DNA of 64,000 nt from Candidatus Woesearchaeota archaeon (GTDB lineage Archaea; Nanobdellota; Nanobdellia; Woesearchaeales; JAAOYA01): NCBI GenBank assembly GCA_018221105.1, contig JAAOYA010000008.1:128648-192647 (forward strand). The letters are read 5' to 3'. Under the pieces are notes generated by a model that saw only the letters and a list, made by a program, of their open reading frames with translations, had not been told where the DNA came from and made no database searches. The stretch's first letter is position 1; each line of letters begins with the position of its first letter. The position numbers and the translations under genes are program-made. This document shows, in pieces, positions 8,232 through 50,968 of the stretch.

Positions 8232-8298
8232 TAGTGAAACAGTGAATTGTAAGCAATAGTACACATTTGAGGAAAACACGAAAGAATAGTGATAAAAA

Positions 8299-22549: not shown

Positions 22550-23071
22550 CTAAAGTTTTACTGCTTTATCTACAAACATGTGTAAATCTTTGACTAATTG
22601 TTTATTATCATCTTCAAAGACTAGTATACTGACCTTTATGTTTGACACTCGCACTTTAGTGATAAGGTTTTGTGCAAATTGTAATACCTTATTAATATCC
22701 TGATACACTAGCAAAGCCGATAATGGTTCTACCAAGCAATTATCACAATTAAAATTGACTACTGTATCAGAAAAAGTCATGCTAAGCTCTGTAAGTGCTG
22801 TTGGCGATGATACAAAAGAACATTGATCAGTATTTTCAGCTGATTTAACAGTTTTAGTTATTGCATCAATAAAATGAAACTTTTGAGATTTTAACTTTAA
22901 TTTATCGAGCTCTTCAATCAAAGAATCAGCAGGCTTGCTTAGTGTAACATAACAAGTCATAGTTGAAGCCTTTGAAAATGCTTTTAAGAGTAAAAAGTGC
23001 TTTTTTGGATAATCACTTTTTTTCATTGTCAAGAGTAGTACTTGTGATTTTTTTATTTCGTTTTCTAACAT
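22550..23071 (-). CDS. Degenerate KaiC/RecA-fold protein, copy 2
   Basis: A 173-residue paralog of the gene at 14205-14744. Shared stretches are FHFIDAITK, SFVSSPTALTELS and PLSALLVYQDINKVLQFAQNL. There is no Walker A and the Walker B acidic position is altered (CLVEPLSALLVY). It is the last gene of the long minus-strand surface array, 25 bp after the gene at 23097. Its position next to both the surface array and the sensory operon makes it a candidate link between them; that is speculative. Confidence 0.6.
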   Translation of the reverse strand: MLENEIKKSQVLLLTMKKSDYPKKHFLLLKAFSKASTMTCYVTLSKPADSLIEELDKLKLKSQKFHFIDAITKTVKSAENTDQCSFVSSPTALTELSMTFSDTVVNFNCDNCLVEPLSALLVYQDINKVLQFAQNLITKVRVSNIKVSILVFEDDNKQLVKDLHMFVDKAVKL

Positions 23072-23096
23072 ACTAGTAGTTTAAAGGTTTTGTTTT

Positions 23097-24401
23097 TTAT
23101 TTCTTTCTATTTCTATCGAACATTACTAGTTTTTCCTCTAAAACAGCCTTTTTTTGCTCAAAGTCATCAAGCAAAGTATCATAATCAGAACGTGATAATG
23201 ATCGATCTTTAAAATATTCGCGCTGTAATTTTTTAACACTATCAGTTAAAGCATCAATTTTTCTAAGGTACAATTTTTCTAATTGTGTGCGAGCGTGTTT
23301 TCTAAAAAATACTTGTCCAATAACTATTATCACCAAAAGAATTACAAAAAGTGCTACACTAATTAATTTATTGTTAGCTACCAAAATCGCAAGATTGTTT
23401 GAGCGATCACCATCAATTAGTCCTACAAGCCCTTCTGTTCTTCTTTGCTCTAAAGAGTTATGAAGTGTTGTTAATTCTTGGCTAGCGCTCTCATAGTTTT
23501 GAGCTCTAAACTCTTCAAGAGCTTTTTGATAAGTTAAAAAATCTTCAGTGATTGTTTTGCCATCATTTTTTAGTGCTTGCAGACTAGTATTTGTTTTTGA
23601 TAAAATATTTTTAGTGCTCAAAAAAAGCTCGTAAACATTGATTGTTTGCATTGCAAAGTCTTTTGCTGCTAGAATTTGACCATTATTGTATTGTACTACT
23701 GCCAAATAATATGTGTCTTCTAAGCGACTAGTAGACACGTTGTTACCTGAAAGGCCATCAATATAATATTTTGAAGTGTTCAAAAGTAACAAAGTATTAG
23801 TTGTTTGCTTGTAATCTTGATATGCTATTTTAATTCTTTGATAGTCAAAAGACGCAAAAACTGTTTTGTAATTAGCAATGCTGCCAGCAATAATAGGCTG
23901 CAAACCTAAACTAGTTTCAGCCTTTTGCAATTTTAAAAGTTCAAGCTTAGTTGTTGAAGGACTGATAAAAGTTTGTCCAAGCAAATCATTGCTTGCAACT
24001 TCTAAAACAGTTACAGTTTGTTCAAAGTTTTCAAAATAATATTCTTGCTTAGCAATTGTCAAAAACTGATTAAAAGACTCGTTTTGCGGTTTGATAATAT
24101 TCAAATTATCCTCATAACTTAAAAGAAGTCTATTGGCTTTAAGCCCCGCATCATAAATCTTTTGCGTTTGAAAAAAGTATTGTGCTACTGCATCATAATT
24201 TTGTTGTTGGTGCTCTAGTTTAGCTTGCGATTCTAAATCACTAATTCTTTGCGCGGGAATGTTTAAAACTGTTATTTTTTCTTTCAAGTCACTGATTTGC
24301 TCTAAATATAGTAATGATTGTATACTTGTATACTCTGCGACAACACTAAAACAAACTAGTGCCAAGAGCAAAATTATTAAAATAGTTTTTTTCAAAGTCA
24401 T
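23097..24401 (-). CDS. Exported helical membrane protein with cytoplasmic tail
   Basis: A 434-residue protein: signal peptide or anchor (KTILIILLLALVCFSVVAE), a ~310-residue extracellular region that is nearly all helix (YDAVAQYFFQTQKIYDAGL and similar tetratricopeptide-like stretches), one membrane segment (ISVALFVILLVIIVIGQVFF, ~348-367) and a ~65-residue basic cytoplasmic coiled-coil tail. The tail contains YFKDRSLSRSDYDTLLDDF, matching two sites in the tail of the 1276-aa neighbour. It overlaps that gene's stop by 4 bp. I do not recognise the family. It probably partners the 1276-aa protein in the membrane. Confidence 0.7.
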   Translation of the reverse strand: MTLKKTILIILLLALVCFSVVAEYTSIQSLLYLEQISDLKEKITVLNIPAQRISDLESQAKLEHQQQNYDAVAQYFFQTQKIYDAGLKANRLLLSYEDNLNIIKPQNESFNQFLTIAKQEYYFENFEQTVTVLEVASNDLLGQTFISPSTTKLELLKLQKAETSLGLQPIIAGSIANYKTVFASFDYQRIKIAYQDYKQTTNTLLLLNTSKYYIDGLSGNNVSTSRLEDTYYLAVVQYNNGQILAAKDFAMQTINVYELFLSTKNILSKTNTSLQALKNDGKTITEDFLTYQKALEEFRAQNYESASQELTTLHNSLEQRRTEGLVGLIDGDRSNNLAILVANNKLISVALFVILLVIIVIGQVFFRKHARTQLEKLYLRKIDALTDSVKKLQREYFKDRSLSRSDYDTLLDDFEQKKAVLEEKLVMFDRNRKK

Positions 24402-27400
24402 TTTTTCTTCAATAACCCTAATTCTTGTTCAATACGAGCTTTCATATTATTGTGTTCTTTTATTAATTGCATGAAAGTCTTGCGATCTAATAATTTTTGA
24501 ACATAATATTTTTCTTGCAAGTACTTTTTATGATTTTGAAGTGTTTTTTGCTGCTCTAAAAGAGCGTGCTTTTTGTTCTGGCCTTTTAGGCGTGCAGCTT
24601 TTAAAATAAGTTTTTGTCTTGAAAGCTCCAAAAGACCTAGTTGTTCGCGATGTTTTTGCATTATTTGCTCGTAAAAACGTCCGCTGATAACACGATCTTT
24701 AAAATGTTTTTTTTGCGAGCGACCAATAAGATCATGAATTCTTTCTTTCTTTGTTTGCAAACTGTTAAGTTGTTTGTTAACATATGCTAGGCTCGTTTTT
24801 GCATAAACTGTAAAAACTACGAGAACACTAGCTATTAACGCTAAAATTGCTTGCCACCAGTAATTTTCTAAAAGTCCAAAAAAGTAAGCAGGACTTCTTT
24901 TATAGTTGCGCTCTTGGCTTTCAATCATTAATTCAACATCATTAATTCTTTTGACAGCTAATTGTAAGTTACCTTCAACATACGCTTGCCTAACCAAATC
25001 TAAAGCATTATTAAGTGCTTGTGAATTGCTGCCTTGACGTTGCATGTTAGTTTTAATGTTTTCAATACTTTCTTCAATAGTTAACGCAGTATCAAGAATT
25101 TGCACAAGCTCATCACATTCTTGCTCAAACAATAAATAGTTTTTATTGCTAAGCAAGCTTGTTAATGTATCAATCTGCTCAAGTGTGATTGTTGGATCAA
25201 CACCAATTGATTGTAAAATACCGATTTTTTCTTTTGTCAAAAACAAACATTGCGTGTGATTAGCAACACCTTCGCTTACAACTAAAAGATTAAATGGCTC
25301 AACAAAACTTCGCAATTTACCACTGCCAATAGCCTCTACTGTAAAATTTAGTGGGTAGTTGCCTTCTCCTAAAAAATAAGGTGTTTTTATTGTTGTAAAA
25401 AAACTTGTTGAATTTCTATAGCCTAATAATTCAACACCTGAAATGCTAAAATTGTAATATACTGGCAGTAAACCTTCAATTTTAAAAGTAATATTTTTTA
25501 ACTCTGTTGTTGGCTCTGGATTAAAAAGTGTCACTTCAAAACTTGTTATTGTTCCCCTAACTACTTCAACCCAAAAAGGTATTGTTATGTTTAAATTGTA
25601 AGATTTGCTTGCGAATCCTCCGCTGGCTTGTGAACTACTAGAACCACCGCTCGGAGGTGGACTAACTATTAGGGCATTGACAGTTACGGCTTTTGACTGT
25701 GTAGAGTCAATACCTGCAGAATTATTACTTATCAAACGAATTGTTGTAGCTCCAGTTGGAGCAGTTGAAGAAATGTCAACGACAATGTTGTGAGTTGTTG
25801 AACCACCATCTGCCACTAGACTACTAACGTTTTTTGTAAGGTTGTCACGTGCACTCCAACCTACGGGTAAAACCCAAATTATTGTGTTATTGTAAGATGT
25901 TTCATTGCCGACGTTAGTTATGCTTGCTTGCAAACTAATTCTTGTATCGCTTTGTGTAACTGTAGGATCATAGCTTATAATTTCACTATACAAGTATGGT
26001 CCTGAAACATAAGATACTAGTGTAAAATTAATTTGTTCTTGTTGTGGGTTAGCACTAGCATTTAATGCTTTTAATAAATTGCTGACTTTATTAGTGCTTT
26101 CACTAGATAACCCTGTAGTTTTTACTTGCACGCTAACATTTTTGTGTGCATAAATTACGAATTGGTAATACTCTGAATTATTATAGTAAACTGTTGGCAC
26201 ACTACTAGCAGTTTTGTTTAAACTAAAAGTTAATGGTATGTCGGCATTGCTTGTAATTGTAATATTGTCAATTGTTTTGTTAGTGTTTAAAAAAGCGCTT
26301 TTTGAACCTAAATCTGTTGATGTGACGCTCCAATTATATTCATAGTAAACATTTAGTGGCTGAACTGTGCTGTTTGCAGTATAGTTTGAAGGGTCTATTG
26401 CAAAAACTCTAAAATGCCACACTCCAGTATTTGTTGGAATAAAACTAGCGTTGTAAATGCTTGAAATATTGCTCATGCTAGCATTATTCCATGTTGACTC
26501 GTTTGACTGCTTGTATTGTAACAACGCATTCGCAACAATACTATTATCGGTGATTTTTGCTGTTACATTGATAGCCCTGCCAGGATCAATATCTTGAGCG
26601 ATTGTTGGCACGTAACTAACTTGTGATATTTGGGGGTCATCACCATCTAAATAAACTGTCAAAAGAGCCGATCTTATAATGCTTGATGTAATATTTGCGT
26701 AAGCGCGAAACAAGTTAGTGCTTGGCAATAATGTGATGCTTGTTTGATAATTATAATAATCATAAATTTTAAAGAGCAGGTCATAAGAATTGTTTTGCAA
26801 AAAGTCTCCGCGTGAGTAAGTATTGTTGCTTGCTTGCCACTCAAAATAATCAGTACTGCCTGCCGCTGGCAATAACACAATCCAATAAACAGTATCTTCT
26901 TGTAAAAGTAAAGTTTCGTTTAAAGTGTAAGCATACCATGAGAAACTATTATTAGAAATCATCAAAGGATTAATACTGGCATTTGCTAGCACTACATTTG
27001 ACGGTTGGCCACTATTGTCTGTTCGCAATTGTACTTGCGCGCCACTAACACCACTGCCACTTTTTTTAAGTCGTAGCACGACTTGTCTGGCAAAAATAGT
27101 GCTTGAAAGATTAAAAGATTGTGACAAGTTCAAATCAGTATTGTTAAAAGAATTGCTTGCTAGTGACTCATTAATATTTCCGTACTCAACACCATTTGAC
27201 AAACTATAATTTTGGTAGTTATGCTCATAAGATACGCTTTCAATGACTGTGTTATTTTGTATACTAAACTGAATTATTTGTTCGCTTGTTGGGTAAACTG
27301 TTTGGTGCACAGGATTGTCGATTGTTATATTCGAATTATCAACAATTAAAAAATACGTTTTTTCAGTATTGTTGGTGTTACTATTTGTGTCATTTGCTAG

Positions 27401-28228
27401 TATTGTAATATTATAGCGTCCAACAGTGCTGGTGTTAATGAATTGTCTTTCGTAAGAACCTCCAACTTCAAGAATTAAATCTTGTGTTTTTGTGCCCCCA
27501 GGCCAATCAACTTGCGCTCTCACACTGTCCACTTGTGTGTCATCACTAACATCAACAATCAATTGCACGTATTGTGGCACTATAAGCTCGTAAGTATTTG
27601 CTATTGTCGGGCTGATTATTTGATTAACGCTTGGAGGGTTAAACTCTATTGATGAATTAACAAAAAATGTTATGTCATCACTATCAGAATAAGTGTTATC
27701 ACCAGTAGCGCTACAAAGCAAGCTAACATGAGAGCCGTAAGCGATAGCTCCTCTTACAGAATGATTATCTTTTACGTCATCAAGAGTGAAATTAACTGTT
27801 CTTGGTTGTTTTGCGCTAACAACACAACTTGCTAAATATTTATTAGTCCATGCTGTACCATTATGATAGTTTATTGCTATTGTATCGCCTTCTTCGTCAC
27901 AGTCAAAAACTACTGTTACTTCTACATTGTCGCCCCCTCTAAAAGAGTTATTATCAAGGTTTGTAATATTGATATCTTCAATATACTCATAAGATGGATT
28001 GTTACCGTCTTTGCAATCATCAATAGTTCTGTAACAATCTTGTGGATTGTTCTGACAATATAGTTCAGTGTGACCTTCAAGCTCGTAGCCACCATTACAA
28101 ATGCTACCACAACCAAAGGGGCTTGTTATCGAATAATTCCCCGATGTTGCAATAATCAATAATGTAGAAAAAAGAGTGCTGATTACTAATAAGATTATTA
28201 AAAACTGTTGTGATTTAATATTTTTCAA
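24398..28228 (-). CDS. Large surface protein (1276 aa) with Ig-like/NEW3-like domains and cytoplasmic tail
   Basis: Signal peptide (FLIILLVISTLFSTLLIIATS), a Cys-rich N-terminal patch (residues ~40-70), then a chain of beta-rich domains with many N-x-S/T sequons, a NEW3-like domain around 800-895, a Ser/Gly linker (~900-915), a further beta domain (~920-1010), a helical extracellular region (~1020-1130), one membrane segment (WWQAILALIASVLVVFTVY, ~1145-1165) and a ~110-residue cytoplasmic tail. The tail has two motif copies, HFKDRVISGRFYEQIM and LLDRKTFMQLI, also found in the 434-aa neighbour. It resembles archaeal surface receptors or adhesins; ligand unknown. Coupled to 23097 by 4-bp overlap; 13 bp after the KaiC gene. 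Confidence 0.75.
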   Translation of the reverse strand: MKNIKSQQFLIILLVISTLFSTLLIIATSGNYSITSPFGCGSICNGGYELEGHTELYCQNNPQDCYRTIDDCKDGNNPSYEYIEDINITNLDNNSFRGGDNVEVTVVFDCDEEGDTIAINYHNGTAWTNKYLASCVVSAKQPRTVNFTLDDVKDNHSVRGAIAYGSHVSLLCSATGDNTYSDSDDITFFVNSSIEFNPPSVNQIISPTIANTYELIVPQYVQLIVDVSDDTQVDSVRAQVDWPGGTKTQDLILEVGGSYERQFINTSTVGRYNITILANDTNSNTNNTEKTYFLIVDNSNITIDNPVHQTVYPTSEQIIQFSIQNNTVIESVSYEHNYQNYSLSNGVEYGNINESLASNSFNNTDLNLSQSFNLSSTIFARQVVLRLKKSGSGVSGAQVQLRTDNSGQPSNVVLANASINPLMISNNSFSWYAYTLNETLLLQEDTVYWIVLLPAAGSTDYFEWQASNNTYSRGDFLQNNSYDLLFKIYDYYNYQTSITLLPSTNLFRAYANITSSIIRSALLTVYLDGDDPQISQVSYVPTIAQDIDPGRAINVTAKITDNSIVANALLQYKQSNESTWNNASMSNISSIYNASFIPTNTGVWHFRVFAIDPSNYTANSTVQPLNVYYEYNWSVTSTDLGSKSAFLNTNKTIDNITITSNADIPLTFSLNKTASSVPTVYYNNSEYYQFVIYAHKNVSVQVKTTGLSSESTNKVSNLLKALNASANPQQEQINFTLVSYVSGPYLYSEIISYDPTVTQSDTRISLQASITNVGNETSYNNTIIWVLPVGWSARDNLTKNVSSLVADGGSTTHNIVVDISSTAPTGATTIRLISNNSAGIDSTQSKAVTVNALIVSPPPSGGSSSSQASGGFASKSYNLNITIPFWVEVVRGTITSFEVTLFNPEPTTELKNITFKIEGLLPVYYNFSISGVELLGYRNSTSFFTTIKTPYFLGEGNYPLNFTVEAIGSGKLRSFVEPFNLLVVSEGVANHTQCLFLTKEKIGILQSIGVDPTITLEQIDTLTSLLSNKNYLLFEQECDELVQILDTALTIEESIENIKTNMQRQGSNSQALNNALDLVRQAYVEGNLQLAVKRINDVELMIESQERNYKRSPAYFFGLLENYWWQAILALIASVLVVFTVYAKTSLAYVNKQLNSLQTKKERIHDLIGRSQKKHFKDRVISGRFYEQIMQKHREQLGLLELSRQKLILKAARLKGQNKKHALLEQQKTLQNHKKYLQEKYYVQKLLDRKTFMQLIKEHNNMKARIEQELGLLKKK

Positions 28229-28240
28229 CTACTACCCACC

Positions 28241-29191
28241 CTACTCTGTAAATACTTCCTCTAAAGGGTAAACTATTATGCCACTACCAGTTTGTATTCT
28301 AAATGGAACAATCTTTTTTTGGTGTGGCGAACCACGTAATTTTATGATTTCTAAGGCGTTAACACGAGCGCTTTTTTGTCTAATATTATAAAAAACGAAC
28401 ACTCCATCTGCTAAAAATTCTTCTACTCCACTACGACTAAATCTTGTTGTGTCTTCATCAATTTCTGATATGAAAAAACTTGTGGCACCAACGCGCTTGA
28501 ACAAATCAAATAATTGTTGTAAGTAAACTCTATAGCCTTGTTCTTTGCCAAAAAAAGCTGCTGCAACAGCTGATAAACTATCAACAACTATTCTATCTGG
28601 TTTGAAGCCTTTAGGTATTATTCCTTCAACTTCGTCTAATTCTATCATTAATTCGCCGCTAGCTTTTGCTAGTAAAGCTTCAACTGAACGATTAAGATCG
28701 AACGCATCAAACTTTTTTATTCTGAACAAATCTTTTTTTTGCAACTCTGTTGGTTTAAAACCGTAATCTTGCATGTGACTTAATAGTTTTTCTGGCTCTT
28801 CTTCAAAAGTAAGATACAAGCATTTCTCACCTTTTTTTGCCGATACGGCCAGTGTTTGCAAAGCAAAAGTTGTTTTGCCAGTTCCCGGACCGCCACATAA
28901 AAGTATCGCTGCACCTTTTGTTATCCCACGCTCTACTAAACCGTCAAAGCCAGGAATTCCTGTCTGTAAAAAAGAACCTGTTGTCTTTTGCTGTTTTGGC
29001 CTTACAACTTTTTGAGCGGAAATGATTTTTTTTGGTGCTGCTTTTTTGATAATTTTTTTAATTGTTTTCTTAACTATTTTTTTTATTATTGGCTTTGCTA
29101 ACTTTTTATTTTGCTTAGCCTTTTTCAATTTTTTAGCAGGCTGTTTGTTTTTAGAACTATTTCGCCTCTTTTTACTAGTTTTTTTTACCAT
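28241..29191 (-). CDS. KaiC-family ATPase with long basic N-terminal tail
   Basis: A 316-residue protein. Residues 1-70 are an extreme Lys-rich tail (KKTSKKRRNSSKNKQPAKK and onward). The KaiC core follows: TGIPGFDGLVERGITKG, Walker A GGPGTGKTT (~99-107), Glu pair LTFEEEPE, Walker B PDRIVVDSLSAV (~199-210) and a final strand region with ALEIIKLRGSPHQKK. An AAGAGGTGGG site precedes the ATG. Its location inside the surface array, between the giant protein and the 1276-aa protein, suggests it signals to or energises that system, as the KaiC-like FlaH does for the archaellum; no archaellum genes are present. The basic tail may bind nucleic acid or acidic lipids. Confidence 0.85.
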   Translation of the reverse strand: MVKKTSKKRRNSSKNKQPAKKLKKAKQNKKLAKPIIKKIVKKTIKKIIKKAAPKKIISAQKVVRPKQQKTTGSFLQTGIPGFDGLVERGITKGAAILLCGGPGTGKTTFALQTLAVSAKKGEKCLYLTFEEEPEKLLSHMQDYGFKPTELQKKDLFRIKKFDAFDLNRSVEALLAKASGELMIELDEVEGIIPKGFKPDRIVVDSLSAVAAAFFGKEQGYRVYLQQLFDLFKRVGATSFFISEIDEDTTRFSRSGVEEFLADGVFVFYNIRQKSARVNALEIIKLRGSPHQKKIVPFRIQTGSGIIVYPLEEVFTE

Positions 29192-29250
29192 TGCCCACCT
29201 CTTATAGTAAATTTCGTGTTTTTTCTTTATAAATGTTGCTTTAAAAAGCT

Positions 29251-32200
29251 TTATTTTAACTCGTAATAAAAGTCTACAGTATCATAACTGCCTTCTAAGT
29301 TGTCACGCAAGTTTGTTGGAAACCTTATTTCATAGTCTACAATACCATATTTTCCTTGTTTTGACTGGTTAATTTTCGTTACAAAAACAACGTCTTGCGC
29401 ACCATTATATTGTGTTCCGCCATCACCATAATCCCATAATATTCCCGTGACAAAGTTTGTGTTGTTAGTGCTCTCAACGTATGGAACGTTATTGATTGTC
29501 GCTCCAAAAACATCAAAGCTAACAGTATTTTTTGGGGCTCCGCCAACAGTGTAAGTGTAGTTTACACTGTCATTATAAGCTGTTGAGCTTAGTGCAGTGT
29601 CTAGATCTTCAAAATCGTTTTGTGCAAAAGAATCACTTATTGTTCTACTAAGCGCTTGTAACTGCGTCCAACCAATATTTCTGCCTGTTTCTAAAACATA
29701 AATATTACCTGTTATTTGTTGTGCTAACCAATCATCTATTGATTTATTGTTAAACTTTGCAAGCACTAAAGTATTATTGATTTTTCCATAAGTATAATGC
29801 CAGCTTGGCACGTTTAATACTCTATTTTGTTTATTGTTAGTCTCATCAGTCTCATCAACACTGCCATTAGTTTGTAATGGTATGTCTACTGCTACAAAAA
29901 AGTTAAAAGGTCCTGGGCCTGTAACTATCCAAGTGGTATTGACTGTGATATTTTGTTCAATGTTCAACTCGCTTATTGTTGTATTGCCATCTATTTGTAC
30001 TCCTCCAAGCTCGGGGTCTCCAAGATAGAACCCTACCTTGAAAGCTTCTGTGTTGTTGACATTTCCAATGTTTGTAATTGTCGCGTTAATACTAATATTT
30101 TGATTTTCAGTTGGACTCACATCACTAAATCGTAAACTACTAGAACGAATTACGATGTCTGGATTTGTAATGTTTAATGTATAACTTTGCAGTGCGAAAT
30201 CATTGTTTGTTGCAACGTCATAACATTGCACATTCCAATTATAGTAGCCTTCAGTTAAGTACATCCAAAAACTATTAGTTTGTTCACTATTGACAGTATT
30301 ATTTGTCTGGTTTTTCGCCCAAGTGCCATTAAAATCTCCCCACAAACTACAATTGACTAGATTGTTGTCGCTTGGCTCGTATGTAAAAGTTACAGTTCCC
30401 TTGTTCAAGTATGCTCCAAAAGTTGGCGTTACCAAATCTACTGTTGGCGGCGTAACATCTTCAGTGTATTTTAGGTAAACTTGTATGAAATTAGTACCAT
30501 AATATTTATTTGAAGCATCTCCACCACTATAATACCATCGTGCTCTAAGCTGCAATCCATCATTTATTTGTGTAACTGTTGGAAAATTATCTTGTGTTGT
30601 ATTAAAATTACATATTACAGGATCATAGCTTGGAGGAGTAGTAAGTGTCGGGCTTGTCTGCTGACATAAATTACTCCAAGTTCCGCTTGTTATATTGTAC
30701 CAGTCCATTTCATAAAACCCATCAGAGCTATCATATTCTTGATATTTTTGGTGTGTGAAGTTTATCCAGTGAATTGTTGCTCCTACTGGAATGTTAGGAT
30801 TTGTAAAATTAAAGTATGCATAATTATCACGGTCTTGACGATCAACCCAACTATGCTCTTCGTATTGCGCGTCACTAACATTTACTAGTGTCACATCACA
30901 AGTTCCTGTTTCTTGAGAGCAAAGCACTGGATAAATTTGAGGATAGAACTCGTTGATAAAAACTGTGAAATTACGTGTTTGTGAAATACCGTTATTGCCT
31001 GCAGTATCATTACATTCAATACGCCAGTCGTAAGCACCGTTTACCATGTTGTTTGCTGAAAAACTATTTATTCCTTGTGTCGCTATACTTTTTGTTTTGT
31101 TAAAAGTATCATTGATAAAGAGCGAACAATTAGTAACTACTCCAGTGTCTGTGACATTAAAGTAAAAAGTTAAATCTCCATCAACATCCTGCTCTCCTTC
31201 AATAGGTGTTGTCAAGTTAACTTCTGGAGCTATAACATCATTGACAGTTAGCGTGTGAACACTTGAATTAAAACTATAGTTTTGCGTTGTGCGATAAGTA
31301 ACATTAACAACATAGTTTCCAGGGGTGTTAAATTGTGAAATATTAATCAATGGGCTGCTACCATTAGCTATTAACGAGTCATCAACATATAATGTAATGT
31401 TGCCTTGTCCAGTGAGTAACAATCCTGTAATATTAGCCCATTGTGTTTCATTAATAATATAATTGCCATCAGTATTGTTTAAAAGTAATTGTATGCTTGC
31501 AGGAATTTTTTGCACTTGATAACTAAACTGTCCAGTAACGCCAGTATTGTCCTCGCTGTCATTTGCGTACATTTTCCAAGAATAACTGCCAGCTGCTAAA
31601 CTTCCAATGTTATAATAGTATTCACTGCTAACATTGCCACTAATCGAATAATTATCTAGTACTCCAAAAAAGTCATGCTCTATTTGGACAACATCAAGCT
31701 GGCCGTTATCAGTCCATGTAACATTAAACTGATAGCTACCCGCAGGGTCATAATTTGTTGGTGTCGTAGGATAAGTTGTAACATCGGACCATTGAGGAGC
31801 TGTAGCGTCAGCCAATGTGCTAAAAGAGTATTCTATGCTTTGATTGCTATTGCCTGCTTGGTCAGTGCTGTTGACAATGTAGTAATAAGTTGTTGAAGGC
31901 AGTAAACTACTCAAATAAATATTATGTTGTGTAACAAAAGATATATCTGTAATATTATTATTATAGACTCCGCTTTGAGTACCATAAAATACTATTGAAT
32001 CGGCGTTCTCATCAGTATCCCATGTGAGGTTAGCACTACTATCAGTTATTGAAATATTTGTAATATTTTGAATGCTTGGCGGTGTCACGTCAGCGCTTGC
32101 TAGTGTTGTAGCATTGTCTTTAGTCCAATAACCAATATTACCAACACTATCAACAGGACGCAATTGTAATTCGTACTGTGTCTCTGACGCTAGGTCTGTA

Positions 32201-41873: not shown

Positions 41874-41931
41874 GTTAAGCGTGAATTATTGAGTTGCTAA
41901 ATGATCAATTAGTTTGTAATTGTTCTTTGTA

Positions 41932-43044: not shown

Positions 43045-43060
43045 TTTCTAGCCTCTTTTT

Positions 43061-43756
43061 TTATGAATCTAATTGTATGCTTTGTTTTTTTTCTTGCGGA
43101 CCAAGCTTTACCCCATCTAACAATTCTTTCTCATCTGCTTTTATGACTTCTTGTATTTCTTTTTCTAAATCATCAAGCAAAATTTTGACTTTTTGCCAGT
43201 CACCACGTTCTTGTGTTGCTTGAGCAATTTGCATTTTTGCTTGAACGTTCTGGCTCAAAAGTTGTGGAACCCACATATCATAGTCTTGCTTTCTTAAATT
43301 ACTCATTTTTTGTTTTATGCCCTCAAAACGATCGTTTAGTGCAAAACTATCAATCCCTCCACCAAAAGCTTGTTCTACTTCTTGAGCCATCTCTTGTATT
43401 CTTTTTTCTTTAGCGCTAAGCTCTTTTGCAGGCTCTTGAGTAGTTTTGGGAATTGTTGGTTGTAAAGATTCATCACCATTATTTATTTGAACCTTTACAT
43501 CACTGTCTTTTAAAATCTCTAGCAGTTCTTCACTATTTTTTGCGCTTTGCAACCGAGCATTCACTATATCCATCTTGAAAACATCCTTTAACCATTTTGC
43601 AAAATCATTTCTTTTGTGTGACAAATGATATTTCACGTTTTTTTCATCAGTTTTTTTCAAGTATTCAACTAGCTCTGTAATACTTTTAAGATTCTTTCCA
43701 TCGACTGTTTTGAAAAACAATCGTTCATCTTCTAAAACCATTTCTTGCGATGTCAT
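43061..43756 (-). CDS. DUF5752-domain protein
   Basis: A 231-residue cytoplasmic protein. Residues ~10-90 are a DUF5752-type helical domain (LFFKTVDGKNLKSITELVEYL, YHLSHKRNDFAKWLKDVF). The rest is helical: residues ~115-225 form a coiled-coil-like region (EKRIQEMAQEVEQAFGGG, KILLDDLEKEIQEVIKA). The same domain occurs twice at the C-terminus of the ATPase encoded directly upstream, whose stop overlaps this start by 4 bp. The two proteins could assemble through like-like domain contacts. Function of DUF5752 is not known to me. Confidence 0.75.
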   Translation of the reverse strand: MTSQEMVLEDERLFFKTVDGKNLKSITELVEYLKKTDEKNVKYHLSHKRNDFAKWLKDVFKMDIVNARLQSAKNSEELLEILKDSDVKVQINNGDESLQPTIPKTTQEPAKELSAKEKRIQEMAQEVEQAFGGGIDSFALNDRFEGIKQKMSNLRKQDYDMWVPQLLSQNVQAKMQIAQATQERGDWQKVKILLDDLEKEIQEVIKADEKELLDGVKLGPQEKKQSIQLDS

Positions 43757-46700
43757 GCTGTTGATTCCTCTAAAACTTTTTTCATCGAACCCTTATCATG
43801 TGCTCCTCGAAGTTTTTCTGCTAAGTCAACATATCCAAAAACTCCTTCAATCCAACTAGCAAAATCATTTTTTTGCTCTGTCACATGATTGTCAAAAATT
43901 CCATCGTCTAAACCGTCGATGTTTTTGTACAGTTCATTGATGCTTTTTAGTTCTTGTCCATTTTCTAGTTTGAAATATTGGTCTGCTGGTGCTTGTTTTT
44001 CAAAGTCCAGCTTTACAAGTTGTGCAGTTTGTTGCGACTGATCTCTTTGTTGATCTACTTTATCATCAAGGCTTTCATTTTTTGGAATTGTTGGCTGTTC
44101 AACATTCTCGCCTTCAGGCGTTTTCATTTCAGGATGTTCTTGTTTTGCTTGATCGAAAGATTTTTCATTCATTGATTCCATTTGGTGCATTAATTTTTCG
44201 CCCTCAGCCATTGCTTTTTGTTTTTCTTCTTGCAAGGGCTCGGCTTGAGGGATTTCTATTTTTGATTCATCTTTTTTCTCCTCAGCTTTCTCTTCTGCTT
44301 TAGGTTCTTCTTTTGGAGCTTCAACTTTTGTTGGGTGTTGCGATTCTTCCATTAGCCGTGCTAACAATTCGTCTTTTATTTTTTCAGCCTTGACTTTCTC
44401 TGTAAGTTTTGGTGTTTGAAAGTTTGCTTCAATCCAATCAGCAATCTCATTTTTTTCATCATTTACGTGTTGCACAAAAATATCTTGACTCATACCTCCT
44501 AAAGCATCAATCAATTCTTGCAATGCTGTAACAGTAGCACCATTGTTAAAATTTAGTGCTTTATCAAAAGGCACAACAAGGTCCATAGTAGTAACCTCTT
44601 TTTGTACTTCTGTTTCTTTTTGTTTTTGAGCTTCTTTTTTTGCCTCTTCAGATTCGTATTTTTCGCGAGCTTCTTTTGCTTTGTCAAGCTCTTGTTTTAA
44701 TTCACTAACATCCACAAGTTTTTTCTCAAGCTTTTTTGGTTTTTTGCCAATCTTATCCCATAACTTTTTTATTCTAGGAGTCAATCCTTCCAAATAAATT
44801 TCTACCATGTTGAAATTGCCACTTTTTACTTTGTCAAGCGCTAGTTTTAATTCTAATTTCATATCAAAAACATCTTGTCCTTCTTCTTTTTCTAATTGTT
44901 CAAGTTCAAAACTTACTTGATCGATTATTTCATTGTACTGGTTGTACTTTTCGAGCTCTTCATCAGTAAGTCTTTGAACAGAATGAAGTAATGGTCTAAA
45001 GGCTACAAAGTATGGTTTGCCCCTATTGTACGCAGGGTTTTCTACCATTCCACTACCAACTTGTGCTTTTACAAGCGATTGTAATACTTCTTTACCGTAC
45101 TTTGTTGCAATACGCTCAAGGTCTCCTTCATCGCGAGTTCTCATCTGAATTTCTGTGTTAATGTTAGCTTTGATTTGTCCTACGAAGTCACTAAGTACTT
45201 GACTGATAAGCATTATTCCAATGCCCCATTTTCGAAACTCCCTACACCCACGTTCTATTTGTAAAAATCCTTCTCCACTGCCGCCAAACTTTGGCAGTAA
45301 TCGGTGCACCTCATCAAAGACTACCATCAAGCGTAATTCTTGAAACTCATCAAAGTTTGCGTGAAATACTTCTCTGATAGCGTTTGCAACGTAAATGTCC
45401 ATGTCTTTAGGGTCAAGCTTGTGACAGGCAAAAATTTGTATTTCGCCGGGCTTGATGTATTTTTTGATATCTATTATTTCTCTAGCGTCAGTGATTTGTC
45501 GAATGTTACCGTTAAATGCTTTCGCGTCAGTTTTTTTAAGTCCGAAAGTTGGATACAATTCTATCATGCTTTTAGTAGTACACTTTCTAAGCATCCCACT
45601 CCATTGCGCTGTAGGATCAAAAACTATTACTGCAACATCTTTGTTGAGCATTTCTTCAATGATTACTTGAGCGCTGACCGATTTTCCGCCACCAGTACTT
45701 CCCGCAATAATGGTGTGTGTTTTGAAGTTCTCCATGTTAAAATAAGTTTTATGATCTGTCTCTGCGATTTTTCCGCCAAAAATACTTCGCGGTCCTGGTC
45801 CTGGTAAAGTATCATATTCGACTCTTAGGTGATACCGTTTTTTTGCTTCAATTCGACGCTTTACAATAAAATAAGTTACTAGCCCTGCTAAAATCAAAAA
45901 TAGTAACAGGAGTATTTTCCAAACTTCTATAAGACCAAAAATTCGTACTTTGTAAAATGGTAGTGTCACTTGAAATAAAACGTCAGCAGTACTTGCCAAG
46001 TCTAAGTAATTAGCTTGCACTCGCAAAATATAATCTCCTGTTTTTAGGTCTTTTGGCAATCGATGATTTTTTAGTAGTGTTATAGAAGTTTTCAAAAATA
46101 CATTATGTGCTTCAGTGTGCATTATGTTACCTTGACGATCGGTGATAGTATAAAATAAGTATATAGGATATTGTTTGTCACTTAGAAGGTTTCTTAGTAC
46201 TGTCTTATACTCTAATATTTTGCCTGCTATTAATTTTTCATCTGTAAGCTCTAATTCTAAAAGTAGTGCTTGAACATCTAATCGTTCTTTGTCTGAAACT
46301 TCAATGTATATTGGTATTTCTCCGTTTACTGCTCCTTCAACGTAAAGTGTTCCGTTGTAAATGCCAAGTGGTTTTTGACCGAATATTGTCAGATTTAATT
46401 CTCTTTTAGACTTTGCAGGTATTGTTATTTGCGTTGTTGACAAGTCGATAATGCTTGAAGCATTGCCAAGAATTCTAAAAGATATTGTTGTAGGCTCGTT
46501 TTTAAGATTGTAAAGCAGTATTGTGTCATGCATAAATTGTCCTTCGTGCAAGAATCTGTTAAGTTGTGCAATACTTATCACAAAGTCTTGACCTTCTAAC
46601 TCTTTTGGCTCTTCAAAAAATGGTCCAAAGTTTGGTCCTATATTATCGTTTTTTCCAGGGCCTGTGTAGTCTGTTTGACCAGGTCCAGAAAAATTTGTTT

Positions 46701-47676
46701 GTCCTGGTCCTATATTGTTCTGTTCTGGAAGTAAAATTATATTATGATATGTTGTGTTAGTATTGTTTATTGTTACGTTTGCGTAATAGACTTCAAAGCC
46801 TGTTTTTAATGCTACTAGTACGTGCTCTCCAGCGTCTAAATTATCAATGTGATAGTGTCCTTGCAAGTCTGTGCTATCGGCCTGTCCTCGAACCATGATT
46901 ATTACAGTGTCGATAGGTAGCCCTATTGAAGTTGTAACATTACCATCTATTGAACCTGTACCATTTGATACTCCAATGCCTGATGGACAATTATCGTTTG
47001 GGTCTGCAAAAAAGTAATATGTTGCGTTAGTATTATTTTTAACTGGCAGTATATACTGGTAATTATATATCCTATCATTGAAGCCTTCTTGAAAGTCTGT
47101 TTTTTGTACAACATATACTATATTATTGCTGCCATCGCGTAGAACGCCTACTAAAAAATCTTGGCCTGTACCGTACTTGTAAAGTCTTGCTGCCGGAATA
47201 TTGTTGATTGTTTGTGTCCCTAATTCTATGCTTGGAATAACTTGTGTGAATGTGTTAGCTGCGGAAGTTATTTCTGTCCCATCATAGCCCATGTATAGAT
47301 CTACTAATTGAGGAGTTCCAGCGCTTATAGTGTTCCAATCAATGTTTTGTGTTTGCGAGGCATAAACTTCGTGCTGTATCTTAGGTTCTAAACACTCAAA
47401 AATAAGGTTTTGCTCAACCATATCACCGCCGCCGACCGTGGTCCATTGTTGGTTAGTATACGCGGGGTCCATAACCATCGCACCATAAGCCCCTGCCCAA
47501 TCAGTACTATCATAGCGAAATTCAAGGTTTACTTCATAAACTCTTCCGGCGAGTACTTGACTTACTGCATGACCAACAAATTGTGATACTATAAGTAATC
47601 CTTTAACACTAAGAATTGCTAGCAGTATAACAACTAGGTAAAACACTGCCTTTTTGAAATTGTGCTGTTGTGTCAT
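43753..47676 (-). CDS. Membrane-anchored HerA/FtsK-type ATPase with extracellular surface module
   Basis: A 1307-residue protein. Signal anchor (AVFYLVVILLAILSVKGLLI); extracellular surface module (~45-235: STDWAGAYGA, HEVYASQTQNIDW, VLRDGSNNIVYVV, ATYYFFADP); carboxypeptidase-regulatory-like beta domain (~245-315); Gly/Pro linker with GPGQT-type repeats (~330-350); two beta domains; membrane segment (ILLLLFLILAGLVTYFIV, ~587-605); ATPase with Walker A AGSTGGGKS (~657) and Walker B LRLMVVFDEVHRLLP (~780); helical tail with two DUF5752-type domains (~1060-1140, ~1225-1307). The core is a HerA/DUF87 hexameric motor. The fusion to an extracellular module shared with the exported proteins suggests a transmembrane machine; whether it moves DNA or protein, or only reorganises the surface, is unknown. 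Confidence 0.85.
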   Translation of the reverse strand: MTQQHNFKKAVFYLVVILLAILSVKGLLIVSQFVGHAVSQVLAGRVYEVNLEFRYDSTDWAGAYGAMVMDPAYTNQQWTTVGGGDMVEQNLIFECLEPKIQHEVYASQTQNIDWNTISAGTPQLVDLYMGYDGTEITSAANTFTQVIPSIELGTQTINNIPAARLYKYGTGQDFLVGVLRDGSNNIVYVVQKTDFQEGFNDRIYNYQYILPVKNNTNATYYFFADPNDNCPSGIGVSNGTGSIDGNVTTSIGLPIDTVIIMVRGQADSTDLQGHYHIDNLDAGEHVLVALKTGFEVYYANVTINNTNTTYHNIILLPEQNNIGPGQTNFSGPGQTDYTGPGKNDNIGPNFGPFFEEPKELEGQDFVISIAQLNRFLHEGQFMHDTILLYNLKNEPTTISFRILGNASSIIDLSTTQITIPAKSKRELNLTIFGQKPLGIYNGTLYVEGAVNGEIPIYIEVSDKERLDVQALLLELELTDEKLIAGKILEYKTVLRNLLSDKQYPIYLFYTITDRQGNIMHTEAHNVFLKTSITLLKNHRLPKDLKTGDYILRVQANYLDLASTADVLFQVTLPFYKVRIFGLIEVWKILLLLFLILAGLVTYFIVKRRIEAKKRYHLRVEYDTLPGPGPRSIFGGKIAETDHKTYFNMENFKTHTIIAGSTGGGKSVSAQVIIEEMLNKDVAVIVFDPTAQWSGMLRKCTTKSMIELYPTFGLKKTDAKAFNGNIRQITDAREIIDIKKYIKPGEIQIFACHKLDPKDMDIYVANAIREVFHANFDEFQELRLMVVFDEVHRLLPKFGGSGEGFLQIERGCREFRKWGIGIMLISQVLSDFVGQIKANINTEIQMRTRDEGDLERIATKYGKEVLQSLVKAQVGSGMVENPAYNRGKPYFVAFRPLLHSVQRLTDEELEKYNQYNEIIDQVSFELEQLEKEEGQDVFDMKLELKLALDKVKSGNFNMVEIYLEGLTPRIKKLWDKIGKKPKKLEKKLVDVSELKQELDKAKEAREKYESEEAKKEAQKQKETEVQKEVTTMDLVVPFDKALNFNNGATVTALQELIDALGGMSQDIFVQHVNDEKNEIADWIEANFQTPKLTEKVKAEKIKDELLARLMEESQHPTKVEAPKEEPKAEEKAEEKKDESKIEIPQAEPLQEEKQKAMAEGEKLMHQMESMNEKSFDQAKQEHPEMKTPEGENVEQPTIPKNESLDDKVDQQRDQSQQTAQLVKLDFEKQAPADQYFKLENGQELKSINELYKNIDGLDDGIFDNHVTEQKNDFASWIEGVFGYVDLAEKLRGAHDKGSMKKVLEESTA
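46971..47544 (-). other. Extracellular surface module of the HerA-type ATPase
   Basis: Approximate extent of the ~190-residue N-terminal module homologous to exported proteins 1-5. Shared order: Trp-Ala-Gly-x-Tyr-Gly, then VYAS strand with IDW, then a Gly-Asn turn before IVYVV, EGF(N/D)xRxYNYQ, and YYFF. Confidence 0.65.
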
Positions 47677-50414
47677 TGTTTCAGTTCACCTGTTGTTTTT
47701 TCGCCTAGCAAAGCTGTTATTTCAGTTATTGAATTGATAATTTCTTCTTTGTTTTTTTCTGGTAGTTTTTGATAAACAAGATTTAATTTAGAGTAAGTTT
47801 TTTCTAATTCTGTTATTTGATTTTTGTTAGCTTGGGCCTTTGCAATAACAACTAGTTTTTTTGCATAAACAATATCTAATTGTGCGCAAAGTCCTCTAAT
47901 AGAATCGTACAATTCATTTTTTAGAACTCTCGGGTATTGTTCGTAGGTTAGTTTTATTTCACGATATATCAAACCGGCTTTTTGAGTGTCGTCTTGTTTT
48001 AGATAATCTAGAGCGTCATTTATTAGAACATTAACATAGCTTACTCTTTTGTCATGACCTATTAATAATGTTTTAAGTATTGCTAGCTTATCAAGAATAT
48101 CATGATTGTAAACTAGGTAAGCTATTGATGCAATTACTACTAATAGTATTAACACTAAAACTTTTTTATTTTGTGAACCATCAAATATTGCAAATCCTGT
48201 AATAGAATTTTTTGCTGGCTGCTCGGTTGTCAAAAGATATGTTTGTGATTTTTCAACGTCACTAGCGCTCAAAGCAGTTATAGTATAATATGTGATCGTT
48301 TTTTGATCTATTTCATACTCTACTAGATTATCATCTAAAATTTTGATTGGCTCATCTACAAATACAATGTTGGAGCGTGTTAGTTTTTCTGGTAAAAATT
48401 CCACTATTTTTGTTTTTTTAGGAGTGTTATTACCTACACTCAATTCTTTCGATATTATAGTTATTTCTTCAGTTAAACCATTCAAGTAAGTGATTCTTGC
48501 TTTGAAGTGCTTTTTTGTAGTGCTAAGTTTTGATTGTAATTTTTCATTTGCACTTAAAAGTTTTTTGAAAGCTTTTGAGCTAATATCAATAGATTTTTGG
48601 TTTAGATAATTTTGTAGTGTTGTCTCTAATTCTTTATCGCTCGGATACTTTACGTATTTATCATCACTGATAATTTGTAGGCGCAACACTGTGTACTTTG
48701 AAAGATTTTCAATTTTTTCTTCTACTTCGCGCAAATAATCTTGTTTTACTTCACTTGCAATATTACAGTATCGTCCTGGACACATCGGATTTTCAATGTT
48801 ATAAATATCACTGTTGTAAGTTCCTAACTGTCTTTTGGCAGCGTATAATTTTTGATCAATATTTAATAATTGTATTACTTGTCCGTCTTTGCCACTGACA
48901 GTTTTTGTTACTTCTATCGCATTATCTATTTGTTGATTATAGTCTTGAGTACTTATGCTTTGATAATTCTCTTCTCCAATAATTTTATAGTTTTCAGTAT
49001 TGCTAGTGGTTTTTTGATTGTTTACATCTGTGCATTCTATTTTGTAATAATAATTTCCTAGTTCTTGGTTTTGTAATGTAAATGTTAACTTGCTGTTTGT
49101 TGTGATGGTTTTTTGTTCAGCTTTACTAGACCACCAATTATTATCAGTACTTGTTAAAAGTTCACAATCAACTGTATGATCAGAAATTACTGAGTACTCT
49201 AATGATATTGTGTTAGTGTTTGATCGTGCATTAGTTGAGTGTAGTGTTAGTTGTGGCGCGCTATTGGTTGTTGGCTCTAATTTCACATTTATTGTTTTGT
49301 TTTTGTCAAGTGTTACGTCTACAAAAGAGTGTTTATATCCTGCGTTGTAAGCGTGTACTTCATAAGTTCCTTGTTCTAATATGAATTCTACTCTTCCTTG
49401 GTTAATAGCTGTTTTTGTTGTGTCATCGACTTCTACTTTTGCGTCTTCAACATAATGGTTTGTTGTGCTGTCTAACACATTGACTATTAGTTTGTACTTG
49501 TTAACAACTTTTATTGTGAAATCTTCAATCAATGTATTGTTTTCTGAGTCTGTGATTGTTAGCTTTACAGTCTCGCTTCCTAATTCATCAAAAGTGTGTG
49601 TTATTTCACTGCCAGTTTTTGAAACTCCATCAAGGTTCCACCTGTAATTAACAGTTCCTATTCCTCCGCTTGCTGTTGCTTTTAGTGTTGTTTCTTTTTT
49701 TCTTTGTACTTTTCTATCATAATCAATGTCTGCTGCTAGATTATTTGTTACTTCGAATGTTTTAGTGGTGCTTGTTGAGGCGCCACCATAAGTTATTTGT
49801 GCTACTAGAGTGTATGTTCCGACTTTTCTTATGTATGGCATTATTTCTGTTACAGGATATGTTTGGTTGAAATAGTTCCACTCGTAGTAAAAACTGTTTG
49901 GCGCTAGAATGCTGATTGTCATGTCAGCGCCGTTATTTGCTATTGCTGTAAAACTACCGCCATCACCTAAACTGTATGTTTGCTTGTTTGTTATGACTTC
50001 AAGTAGCAATGTGTCTGGCGTTGCACCATTGCAATCATCATCAACTCCATTATCAAGTATTTCGACAGTACCTGGGTGTACTGCAGGGTTGTTGTCATTG
50101 CAGTCCGCGCCGCCAGCTTGTAGTGCGTCATAACCGTCACCATCTACATCTGTTAAATCACCATTTTGACAGTCTTGGTCTATTGAGTCATAAGGTATTT
50201 CAGTAGCGGATGGGTTAATGCTTGCATCATTGTCATCGCAGTCTTCTGGTGGCGAGTAAGCGTCCCCGTCATTGTCAATTATTGTAGTATTGTTTGATGA
50301 ATTGTCTGCTAAAACTATTGTTGGATTAGTAGCTAGAATTGCTGTCAGAATTAACAATGTTAACAGTACTAAAAAGTTATTGCTTTCTTTTTTAGTTTTT
50401 TGACTATTCATCAT
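47673..50414 (-). CDS. Surface protein (913 aa) with MopE-like metal-binding and PKD domains, membrane segment and helical tail
   Basis: Signal peptide (NFLVLLTLLILTAILATNP); two putative metal-binding repeats of the MopE type (DNDGDAYSPPEDCDDNDASI ~45-64, and DVDGDGYDALQAGGADCNDN ~90-110) rich in Asp and Cys; a beta domain; a PKD-like domain (~225-310, with LDGVSKTGSEITHTFDELG); a carboxypeptidase-regulatory or PEGA-like domain (~315-385); further beta and helical parts; one membrane segment (LVLILLVVIASIAYLVY, ~746-768); and a ~145-residue cytoplasmic helical tail. It overlaps the ATPase start by 4 bp and the ribbon-helix-helix gene by 11 bp. Probably a surface receptor or anchor that links the exterior to the motor and binds calcium or similar ions. 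Confidence 0.75.
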   Translation of the reverse strand: MMNSQKTKKESNNFLVLLTLLILTAILATNPTIVLADNSSNNTTIIDNDGDAYSPPEDCDDNDASINPSATEIPYDSIDQDCQNGDLTDVDGDGYDALQAGGADCNDNNPAVHPGTVEILDNGVDDDCNGATPDTLLLEVITNKQTYSLGDGGSFTAIANNGADMTISILAPNSFYYEWNYFNQTYPVTEIMPYIRKVGTYTLVAQITYGGASTSTTKTFEVTNNLAADIDYDRKVQRKKETTLKATASGGIGTVNYRWNLDGVSKTGSEITHTFDELGSETVKLTITDSENNTLIEDFTIKVVNKYKLIVNVLDSTTNHYVEDAKVEVDDTTKTAINQGRVEFILEQGTYEVHAYNAGYKHSFVDVTLDKNKTINVKLEPTTNSAPQLTLHSTNARSNTNTISLEYSVISDHTVDCELLTSTDNNWWSSKAEQKTITTNSKLTFTLQNQELGNYYYKIECTDVNNQKTTSNTENYKIIGEENYQSISTQDYNQQIDNAIEVTKTVSGKDGQVIQLLNIDQKLYAAKRQLGTYNSDIYNIENPMCPGRYCNIASEVKQDYLREVEEKIENLSKYTVLRLQIISDDKYVKYPSDKELETTLQNYLNQKSIDISSKAFKKLLSANEKLQSKLSTTKKHFKARITYLNGLTEEITIISKELSVGNNTPKKTKIVEFLPEKLTRSNIVFVDEPIKILDDNLVEYEIDQKTITYYTITALSASDVEKSQTYLLTTEQPAKNSITGFAIFDGSQNKKVLVLILLVVIASIAYLVYNHDILDKLAILKTLLIGHDKRVSYVNVLINDALDYLKQDDTQKAGLIYREIKLTYEQYPRVLKNELYDSIRGLCAQLDIVYAKKLVVIAKAQANKNQITELEKTYSKLNLVYQKLPEKNKEEIINSITEITALLGEKTTGELKQ

Positions 50415-50673
50415 TTAGTTCTCCAAGTAATTCTTTTAGGTTCAGTAGTAAGTCTCGTTGTTTTCGCATTTGTTCGTTTTTGACTTTTGATGTTAAATCA
50501 TGGCGTATTTGTTGCAACTCTGCAGCTATTGGTTCTTTTTGTTGTAAGTATTTTTTTCTTGAGATTGAGCGAAGTAATTCTGATAAGTCCATGTAATGAT
50601 TATTTTTTGCCAGTCTTTTAAGTTCTAGAACTAGTGAGGCGGGCACCCGTATGCTTACTATTTGATCTGTAAT
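50404..50673 (-). CDS. Ribbon-helix-helix protein with probable ATT start
   Basis: An 89-residue protein whose first ~45 residues are a ribbon-helix-helix: strand QIVSIRVPASLVL, helix LELKRLAKNNHY, turn MDLSELLRSI. A charged helical tail of ~40 residues follows (QKEPIAAELQQIRHDLTSKV). The GTG at 50646 would cut off half of the DNA-binding strand, and no ATG lies between it and the in-frame stop. ATT 50673 sits 7 bases after AGGTGA and restores the whole fold, so an ATT start is proposed. Second gene of the surface array, 12 bp after another ribbon-helix-helix gene. Probably controls the array through the 11-bp repeats upstream. Confidence 0.65.
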   Translation of the reverse strand: MTDQIVSIRVPASLVLELKRLAKNNHYMDLSELLRSISRKKYLQQKEPIAAELQQIRHDLTSKVKNEQMRKQRDLLLNLKELLGELNDE

Positions 50674-50685
50674 TTTTTGTTCACC

Positions 50686-50844
50686 TTAGGTTTTTTTGTG
50701 TTCTTGCCCCTCCACGTATTCTCTCGCAAACTCTCGTAATGCCTCTGATCTACTGGAATATTGATTTTTTTTAATTAGAGAATCTAACCAACTGACTATT
50801 TCTTTTGGCAGTCGTACGTTAATAACAGCTACTTCTTTTTTCAT
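50686..50844 (-). CDS. CopG-like ribbon-helix-helix protein (52 aa)
   Basis: A short gene: 52 codons from ATG 50844 to TAA. The whole product is a ribbon-helix-helix: strand EVAVINVRLPKE, helix 1 IVSWLDSLIKKNQYS, turn and helix 2 SRSEALREFAREYVEG. Such proteins bind DNA as dimers of dimers on short repeated sites. It is the first gene of the twelve-gene minus-strand surface array. Two pairs of 11-bp direct repeats lie over and upstream of its promoter (50872-50893 and 50947-50968), so autoregulation is likely. The next gene, also ribbon-helix-helix, starts 12 bp later. Confidence 0.85.
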   Translation of the reverse strand: MKKEVAVINVRLPKEIVSWLDSLIKKNQYSSRSEALREFAREYVEGQEHKKT

Positions 50845-50871: not shown

Positions 50872-50893
50872 TTGTATGACATTTGTGTGATAT
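50872..50893. promoter_or_regulatory. Operator candidate, 11-bp direct repeat pair (proximal)
   Basis: TTGTATGACAT (50872-50882) followed directly by TTGTGTGATAT (50883-50893), imperfect copies of the distal pair. They cover the expected transcription start of the array (near 50876, from the TATA box at 50898-50908). Confidence 0.6.
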
Positions 50894-50897
50894 TATT

Positions 50898-50908
50898 CTT
50901 ATATAAAG
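50898..50908 (-). promoter_or_regulatory. TATA box of the surface array
   Basis: On the minus strand CTTTATATAAG, lying between the two direct-repeat pairs, 54-64 bp before the first ATG. A second TATA-like AGTATATC (~50864-50871) could give a leaderless transcript. Confidence 0.5.
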
Positions 50909-50946
50909 GTTACTATTTTTAAATATGTATTTTAAATAACATATAT

Positions 50947-50968
50947 TTGTAAGACAATTGTAAGACAA
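50947..50968. promoter_or_regulatory. Operator candidate, perfect 11-bp direct repeat pair (distal)
   Basis: TTGTAAGACAA occurs twice in perfect tandem (50947-50957 and 50958-50968). The pair starts 75 bp from the proximal pair, close to seven helical turns, so both could face the same side of the DNA. Confidence 0.65.

Follow-up and report, generated by a model that had tools for sequence, protein, structure and literature searches.

The subject of this report is an array of twelve genes for surface proteins, ATPases and their putative partners in the genome of Candidatus Woesearchaeota archaeon (assembly GCA_018221105.1; 1.15 Mb, 11 contigs). The array lies in a 64,000-nucleotide stretch of contig JAAOYA010000008.1 (positions 128,648 to 192,647), referred to here as the window, whose own coordinates are used below. 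The genes, g1 to g12, all follow the minus strand at 22550-50844, with every open reading frame located where an earlier reading of the same letters (the original prediction) had placed it. They overlap by 4 bp at g3/g4, g4/g5, g7/g8 and g10/g11 and by 11 bp at g2/g3, and the intergenic gaps within the array are 12, 16, 25, 58 and 59 bp. The original prediction took the twelve genes for a single run. The co-directional set stands, with two transcription units being more probable than one: a TATA-like box (ATTTATAAAG; 29234-29225, minus strand) in the 59-bp gap upstream of the KaiC gene g9 suggests the start of a second unit, and the genes from g9 onward are detached or inverted in relatives. 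The array is best read as two modules, a core encoding two ribbon-helix-helix (RHH) proteins, a MopE/PKD surface protein, a HerA ATPase, a DUF5752-like protein and a coiled-coil protein, along with two giant proteins, and a facultative module of KaiC, g10, g11 and a degenerate KaiC. Topology was assigned throughout by hydropathy only, and open reading frames in relatives were called mechanically.

The HerA ATPase and the genes around it

The motor gene g4 (43753..47676) encodes a membrane-anchored ATPase that comprises, in this order, a signal segment, an ectodomain (residues 26-345), a beta-rich outside part, a transmembrane segment (587-605), the HerA core (635-910) and C-terminal DUF5752-like repeats. 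It belongs to the HerA/FtsK-HerA superfamily, as judged from the Pfam DUF87 match (41.9 bits versus a cut-off of 23.2), from the intact Walker A (GSTGGGKS) and Walker B (VVFDE) motifs and from the modeled structure of the core (pLDDT 89), for which the top Foldseek matches are all HerA proteins (4d2i, E 2e-12), followed by FtsK and TcpA, with modest TM-scores of 0.3-0.5. Against the NCBIfam models, the core is closest to CedD, an ATPase of DNA import (E 8e-12; 44.6 bits versus a cut-off of 600), then to HerA and TraD, all of these matches being far below cut-off. The ectodomain includes a carboxypeptidase-regulatory-like domain (Pfam CarboxypepD_reg), and clear fold matches were obtained for this carboxypeptidase-regulatory/CnaB-like part only, the fold search returning no confident structural relative for the N-terminal part. 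A viral origin of the HerA core was rejected, as no relative was found in the viral contig collection. Two variations on the gene were noted in other genomes. In one locus (L045, genome G069) HerA is split over two adjacent genes, for the ectodomain with the transmembrane segment (587 aa) and for the ATPase (729 aa), suggesting that the halves may work as separate chains. In loci L088, L089, L065, L148 and those related to them, two HerA genes are found near each other, a short one without the ectodomain and a long one that includes it, which may make up a hetero-oligomeric version.

The same layout of an N-terminal signal segment, a large outside part, one transmembrane segment and a cytosolic tail is common to HerA, g3, g10 and g11, and no membrane protein of the array has more than one transmembrane segment besides the signal segment. 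The g3 protein (47673..50414; Pfam, hydropathy, synteny) possesses MopE-type metal-binding repeats along with PKD and PEGA-like domains, and its membrane segment is at residues 752-770. The next gene after HerA, g5 (43061..43756), encodes a putative adaptor with a domain at residues 14-83, for which the DUF5752 label of the original prediction holds in part. The Pfam match is below threshold (E 0.0096), as is that of the HerA C-terminal repeat (E 0.0014), but a local profile gathers the HerA tail, g5 and proteins of relatives, KaiC and g10 proteins among them, into one coherent DUF5752-like repeat family. The cytosolic coiled-coil protein g6 (41932..43044), recognized by its co-occurrence with HerA and by alignment, belongs to a family with a near-invariant IGELR motif. 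A kinship of g6 with Rad50/SMC proteins was rejected, as the matches were to the coils only and were judged compositional. In the library searched, no literature was found on DUF5752 or on HerA in Woesearchaeota.

Downstream are the two giants, g7 (34491..41873; 2460 aa) and its paralogue g8 (29251..34494; 1747 aa), both with a signal segment and no transmembrane segment, suggestive of secretion. The former carries an Ig-like/CARDB array (Pfam Big/CARDB), a conserved N-terminal head and a C-terminal domain of approximately 330 aa, with no membrane segment at the C-terminus; the latter carries the same C-terminal domain, and in four relatives its homologues have open frames of 1732-1766 aa.

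At the head of the operon, g1 (50686..50844) encodes a CopG-type RHH regulator (Pfam RHH_1, E 5e-8), and a gene of this type also heads the cassette in relatives. It is followed by g2 (50404..50673), a second RHH-like protein recognized by its sequence and by homologues in the same position in relatives (35-52% identical). Both predicted RHH proteins are present, but the start of g2 required correction: the gene lacks an ATG, and the start is probably the ATT at 50673, which stands behind a Shine-Dalgarno sequence (AAGGTGA), in frame directly after the g1 stop (50671-50687), or otherwise the GTG at 50646. Upstream of g1, a TATA box (TTTATATAAG; 50907-50898, minus strand) is flanked by three TGTCWTACAA sites detected on the minus strand by a motif search (50872-50881, 50947-50956 and 50958-50967; span 50872..50967), the two upstream copies being 11 bp apart. 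All three matches in the window fall in this 96-bp stretch, and the entire genome has five copies, the other two inside open reading frames. In 35 related loci, with the window left out, the nine-base core of the motif occurs 16 times, in 11 of the loci, within 250 bp upstream of the first RHH gene, where the remainder of these loci would predict 0.17 sites, a 94-fold enrichment. We read this motif as a putative autoregulatory operator of the RHH pair.

Conservation of the core and its fused counterparts

The original prediction proposed that recurrence of the set beside the ATPase in other genomes would decide whether it is a system. For the core such recurrence is found, as g3, HerA, the DUF5752-like gene and the coiled-coil gene are present in this order in dozens of genomes, often followed by giants. 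When 22 loci were mapped over up to 40 kb, nearly all followed the order RHH-RHH-g3-HerA-(DUF5752-like)-coiled coil, frequently with giants of the common C-terminal domain next. Of the 77 loci named, 47 have the type of HerA found in the window, and in those with sufficient flanks, to which the counts are limited, the upstream genes include g3 (31 of 35) and an RHH gene (25 of 35), and the downstream genes include the coiled coil (32 of 36) and a separate DUF5752-like gene (20 of 36). A giant with the C-terminal domain follows in 10 of 26 loci, the fetched flank often ending inside the giants. Across 371 genomes of the phylum, a HerA relative is present in 72 and the coiled coil in 65, with both in 62, HerA only in 10 and the coiled coil only in three (Fisher 7e-56, uncorrected for shared ancestry). 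The two genes are also close to each other, with 51 of the 74 coiled-coil genes less than 5 kb from HerA, and 20 of the others on contigs without any HerA, so that g6 appears to be a near-obligate neighbor of HerA. The named relatives belong to Woesearchaeota, Pacearchaeota and other Nanobdellota, along with one Diapherotrites record, and the order of the core is kept across Woesearchaeota/Nanobdellota. The core is thus well supported, from comparison of these loci, as a real system. The claim that the system is undescribed survives in a narrower form: proteins of the SPEARE type are known, a fused paralogue is present in the same genome, and the KaiC part appears to be a module of its own.

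The fused forms are represented by loci in which open frames of 2400 to more than 12000 aa terminate in the HerA core, nearly always with an adjacent coiled-coil gene. One example is found in the genome of the window itself (G000:C2:302399-326968, loci L067 and L068), where a giant of at least 8189 aa, running to the contig end, encodes FG-GAP, CBM96 and NEW3 domains (sequence, Pfam), ends in a transmembrane segment and HerA and precedes a coiled-coil gene whose product is 43% identical to g6 over the core. The FG-GAP and CBM96 domains are as expected for a protein that might recognize another surface. A maximum-likelihood tree groups the fused HerAs into a single clade (support 96), with one member from an incomplete contig, and places the HerA of the window in another clade (support 98), so that two sister systems would coexist in this cell. 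In the sister clade, the fusion of the genes links the motor to the giant physically.

Such an architecture has a precedent in the SPEARE proteins of nanohaloarchaea, described as possessing a giant ectodomain, a transmembrane segment close to the C-terminus and a cytosolic part. The cytosolic part was taken for a restriction enzyme at first (PMC6642349) and was later interpreted as an ATPase of the VirB4/TraG type that ends in a coiled coil, in a proposed secretion 'straw' (PMC10266531). For these giants, a function in attaching to the host and in transport has been proposed (PMC6642349, PMC10266531), and sequences similar to SPEARE were noted in Woesearchaeota (PMC6642349). The likeness is one of layout: a giant adhesive ectodomain, one transmembrane segment near the end, a cytosolic ATPase of the HerA/VirB4 superfamily and a coiled coil, as in the fused paralogue. 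However, SPEARE is a single polypeptide, whereas in the window HerA, the giants and the coiled coil are encoded by separate genes of one array, to which the RHH regulators, the MopE/PKD protein, the DUF5752-like adaptors and the KaiC module are added, and the ATPase is nearest to HerA. A laminin-G domain, at least one of which is expected of SPEARE proteins, had no Pfam match (LamG) in g7, g8 or the 7532 aa scanned of the fused paralogue. By layout, then, the array may be set beside SPEARE as a split, multi-gene variant of this type of architecture. No description was found in the literature of the conserved operon, the operator, the split form, the adaptors or the shared ectodomain.

This shared ectodomain links the motor to the giants in another way. 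When separate profiles were built, one from HerA ectodomains only and one from giants only, the former detected five small secreted proteins of the window (hmmsearch, best E 1e-17), encoded outside the array on the plus strand (3470-4348, 4381-5136, 5798-6517, 7452-8180 and 8299-9033; span 3470..9033). The hhalign probabilities are 98.7% between the ectodomain and the small proteins, 97.4% between the C-terminal domain of the giants and the small proteins, and 94.8% between the ectodomain and the C-terminal domain. One undescribed domain family thus covers the ectodomain of HerA, the C-terminal domain shared by g7 and g8, and the five small surface proteins; the two of the five small proteins that were scanned match no Pfam family. 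The C-terminal domain of the giants is encoded in 60 of the 371 genomes, 40 of which hold HerA. Genomes that lack this HerA also encode the shared domain, which is hence probably a module of general use at the surface or in anchoring, employed by the HerA machine as well. Beside the five small proteins, a minus-strand gene (9048-9620) resembles signal peptidase I by eye, with no Pfam match, and the region 3470-9620 may be a cluster for a filament or a surface lattice, equipped with a peptidase of its own.

The KaiC module and neighboring genes

The second module begins with g9 (28241..29191), a KaiC-family ATPase with an intact Walker A motif (Pfam KaiC, E 2e-50), followed by g10 (24398..28228), a 1276-aa surface protein with a NEW3-like part, one transmembrane segment (1125-1143) and a cytosolic helical tail, g11 (23097..24401), a membrane protein with one transmembrane segment (346-364) and a cytosolic tail, and g12 (22550..23071), a degenerate, DUF7504-like KaiC (Pfam DUF7504, E 4.5e-6) without Walker A. 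Full-length homologues of g10 are present in genomes G280, G069, G222 and G187. The four genes are contiguous in the window and, apart from g11, in G280, while in G069 the module is inverted and distant, and in G222 it is approximately 6 kb beyond the coiled coil, suggesting a separate, facultative module. Its link to the core is indicated by the DUF5752-like domain, carried as a fusion by the KaiC of G280, G069 and G156 and by the g10 of G222.

Next to the array (12411-21495), the window has a signaling cluster that encodes a V4R protein, a KaiC, a 98-aa protein, a degenerate KaiC, a PAS protein, an NMT1-like binding protein, a Cache-HAMP protein and a Cache-HAMP histidine kinase. A pair of KaiC and a 100-aa protein is also present within approximately 30 kb of the HerA cassette in loci L048, L049 and L053 (genomes G222, G068 and G349), the counterpart in the window being at 13135-14122. 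The UbiA, FAD and KaiC genes adjoining the cassette in some relatives look unrelated.

A possible host-contact machine and its rivals

The array was compared with known systems that employ related ATPases. The Ced/Ted DNA import and type IV secretion systems (PMC9905601, PMC11868833) also place an ATPase of the HerA/VirB4 superfamily at the membrane, but the motor of the window bears an ectodomain itself and is linked with giant proteins. By hydropathy, no polytopic channel (CedA/TedA/VirB6) is found among the array proteins, and a VirB2/CedA1-type pilin, a small two-helix membrane protein, is not among g1-g12. The HerA-NurA pair of DNA end resection shares the HerA fold and the Walker motifs, but the HerA of the window is membrane-anchored and has an ectodomain, and no NurA family is recognized by Pfam among the array genes, a NurA being encoded elsewhere in the genome (G000:C2:216332), which also encodes a separate HerA-like protein. 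Archaella and type IV pili are similar in possessing a KaiC-family ATPase (ArlH is KaiC-like) and, in general terms, surface fibers. However, in agreement with the original prediction, no GspE, GspF or prepilin family was matched by Pfam among the array proteins; T2SSE-family ATPases are present elsewhere in the genome, outside the array. A competence channel was also rejected, as the genome lacks ComEC.

Our proposal, to which we give an even chance, is that the core, g1 to g8, specifies a self-regulated, membrane-spanning host-contact apparatus in which a HerA ring, coupled to giant adhesins, moves a polymer across the membrane. The HerA subunits, with one transmembrane segment each, would form a ring under the membrane with the ectodomains outside, g3 would be a second membrane partner of the same topology, and g6 and the DUF5752-like adaptors would bind the ring from the cytosolic side. 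The secreted g7 and g8 would act as long adhesive arms, attached to the surface via the C-terminal domain of the HerA-ectodomain family. At the contact site, ATP hydrolysis by the ring would drive a polymer, more probably DNA than protein, across the membrane, and KaiC, g10, g11 and g12 would be accessory, sensing or regulating via the DUF5752-like adaptor. Ring assembly, docking of the giants, host contact, translocation and its substrate, and with them the role of HerA as the driver of a surface machine, are what we infer from gene content and predicted topology. The parts of this proposal are of unequal strength. That HerA, g3, the coiled coil and the giants form one envelope complex is rather probable; translocation of a polymer by the ring is plausible at somewhat less than even chances; and DNA as that polymer is a tentative choice, well below even chances. 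Several observations weigh against the proposal. By Pfam and hydropathy, the array encodes no polytopic channel of the VirB6/CedA type, conjugative pilin, relaxase or nuclease, the lack of the channel being the main argument against transport, and one transmembrane segment per HerA subunit may be too little for a pore. The KaiC module is often detached from the core, and the C-terminal domain of the giants is present in approximately 20 genomes without this HerA, hence is not exclusive to the machine.

The same lack of a channel protein favors the strongest rival, in which the HerA ring is an ATP-driven assembler or tether that oligomerizes, holds the giant adhesins in place with six arms to each ring and governs whether they are displayed or retracted, serving attachment only. 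This possibility, which we hold to be real if rather unlikely, would also agree with the HerA of the sister clade being the C-terminal domain of the adhesin itself, and with the giants having a C-terminal domain of the same family as the ectodomain of HerA. However, the intact, highly conserved ATPase core exceeds the needs of an anchor, and HerA/FtsK ATPases of known function mostly pass DNA or protein through the ring. An FtsK-like role, with the membrane HerA pumping the chromosome at division and its ectodomain linked to the surface layer, is suggested by the common superfamily of FtsK and HerA, both of which match the fold, and by the FtsK-like anchoring in the membrane. It is improbable because HerA is present in so few of the genomes surveyed (72 of 371), not as expected of a housekeeping function, and the giants, the metal-binding/PKD protein and the dedicated operator do not fit it either, nor does the separate HerA-like protein encoded, with NurA, in the same genome.

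Anti-phage defense of the HerA-effector type (SIR2-HerA, DUF4297-HerA) is still less probable. The HerA core does match several defense HerA models and the mad8 model (E 1.8e-18), and defense HerA structures are among its best fold matches, but no partner effector (SIR2, DUF4297 or another nuclease) is found in the array, and the signal segment, the large ectodomain and the giants point to the cell surface. If the array were no more than unrelated surface and ATPase genes that happen to adjoin in a compact genome, the shifting positions of the KaiC module and the giants between genomes could be explained, but the order of the core is kept across many species, dozens of them, which argues for more than chance, as do the conserved operator, the HerA-giant fusions and the shared domains; we consider this the most remote of the explanations.

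Returning to the host-contact apparatus, the genomes possessing the core are those of tiny, probably host-dependent archaea, and what they encode looks like a machine for contacting another cell that is largely undescribed. It may tentatively be regarded as a distinct class of surface machine, in which a membrane HerA ring, separate from or fused to a giant adhesin, together with a near-obligate coiled-coil partner and a dedicated surface domain, would transfer macromolecules (probably DNA) between the cells of a DPANN archaeon and of its host. Such a machine would do without the components from which type IV pili, archaella and type IV secretion systems are assembled. The data raise the possibility that the SPEARE giants, known as isolated proteins, represent one version of a broader, modular apparatus, with a motor grouped with HerA-type DNA translocases. 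The gene set (HerA, g3, the coiled coil, the adaptors and the giants), the operator and the new surface domain family can now be searched for in any DPANN genome. How these archaea hold on to their hosts and feed from them is a long-standing question, and the grouping of the motor with HerA-type DNA translocases makes the uptake of DNA or protein at the contact site testable.

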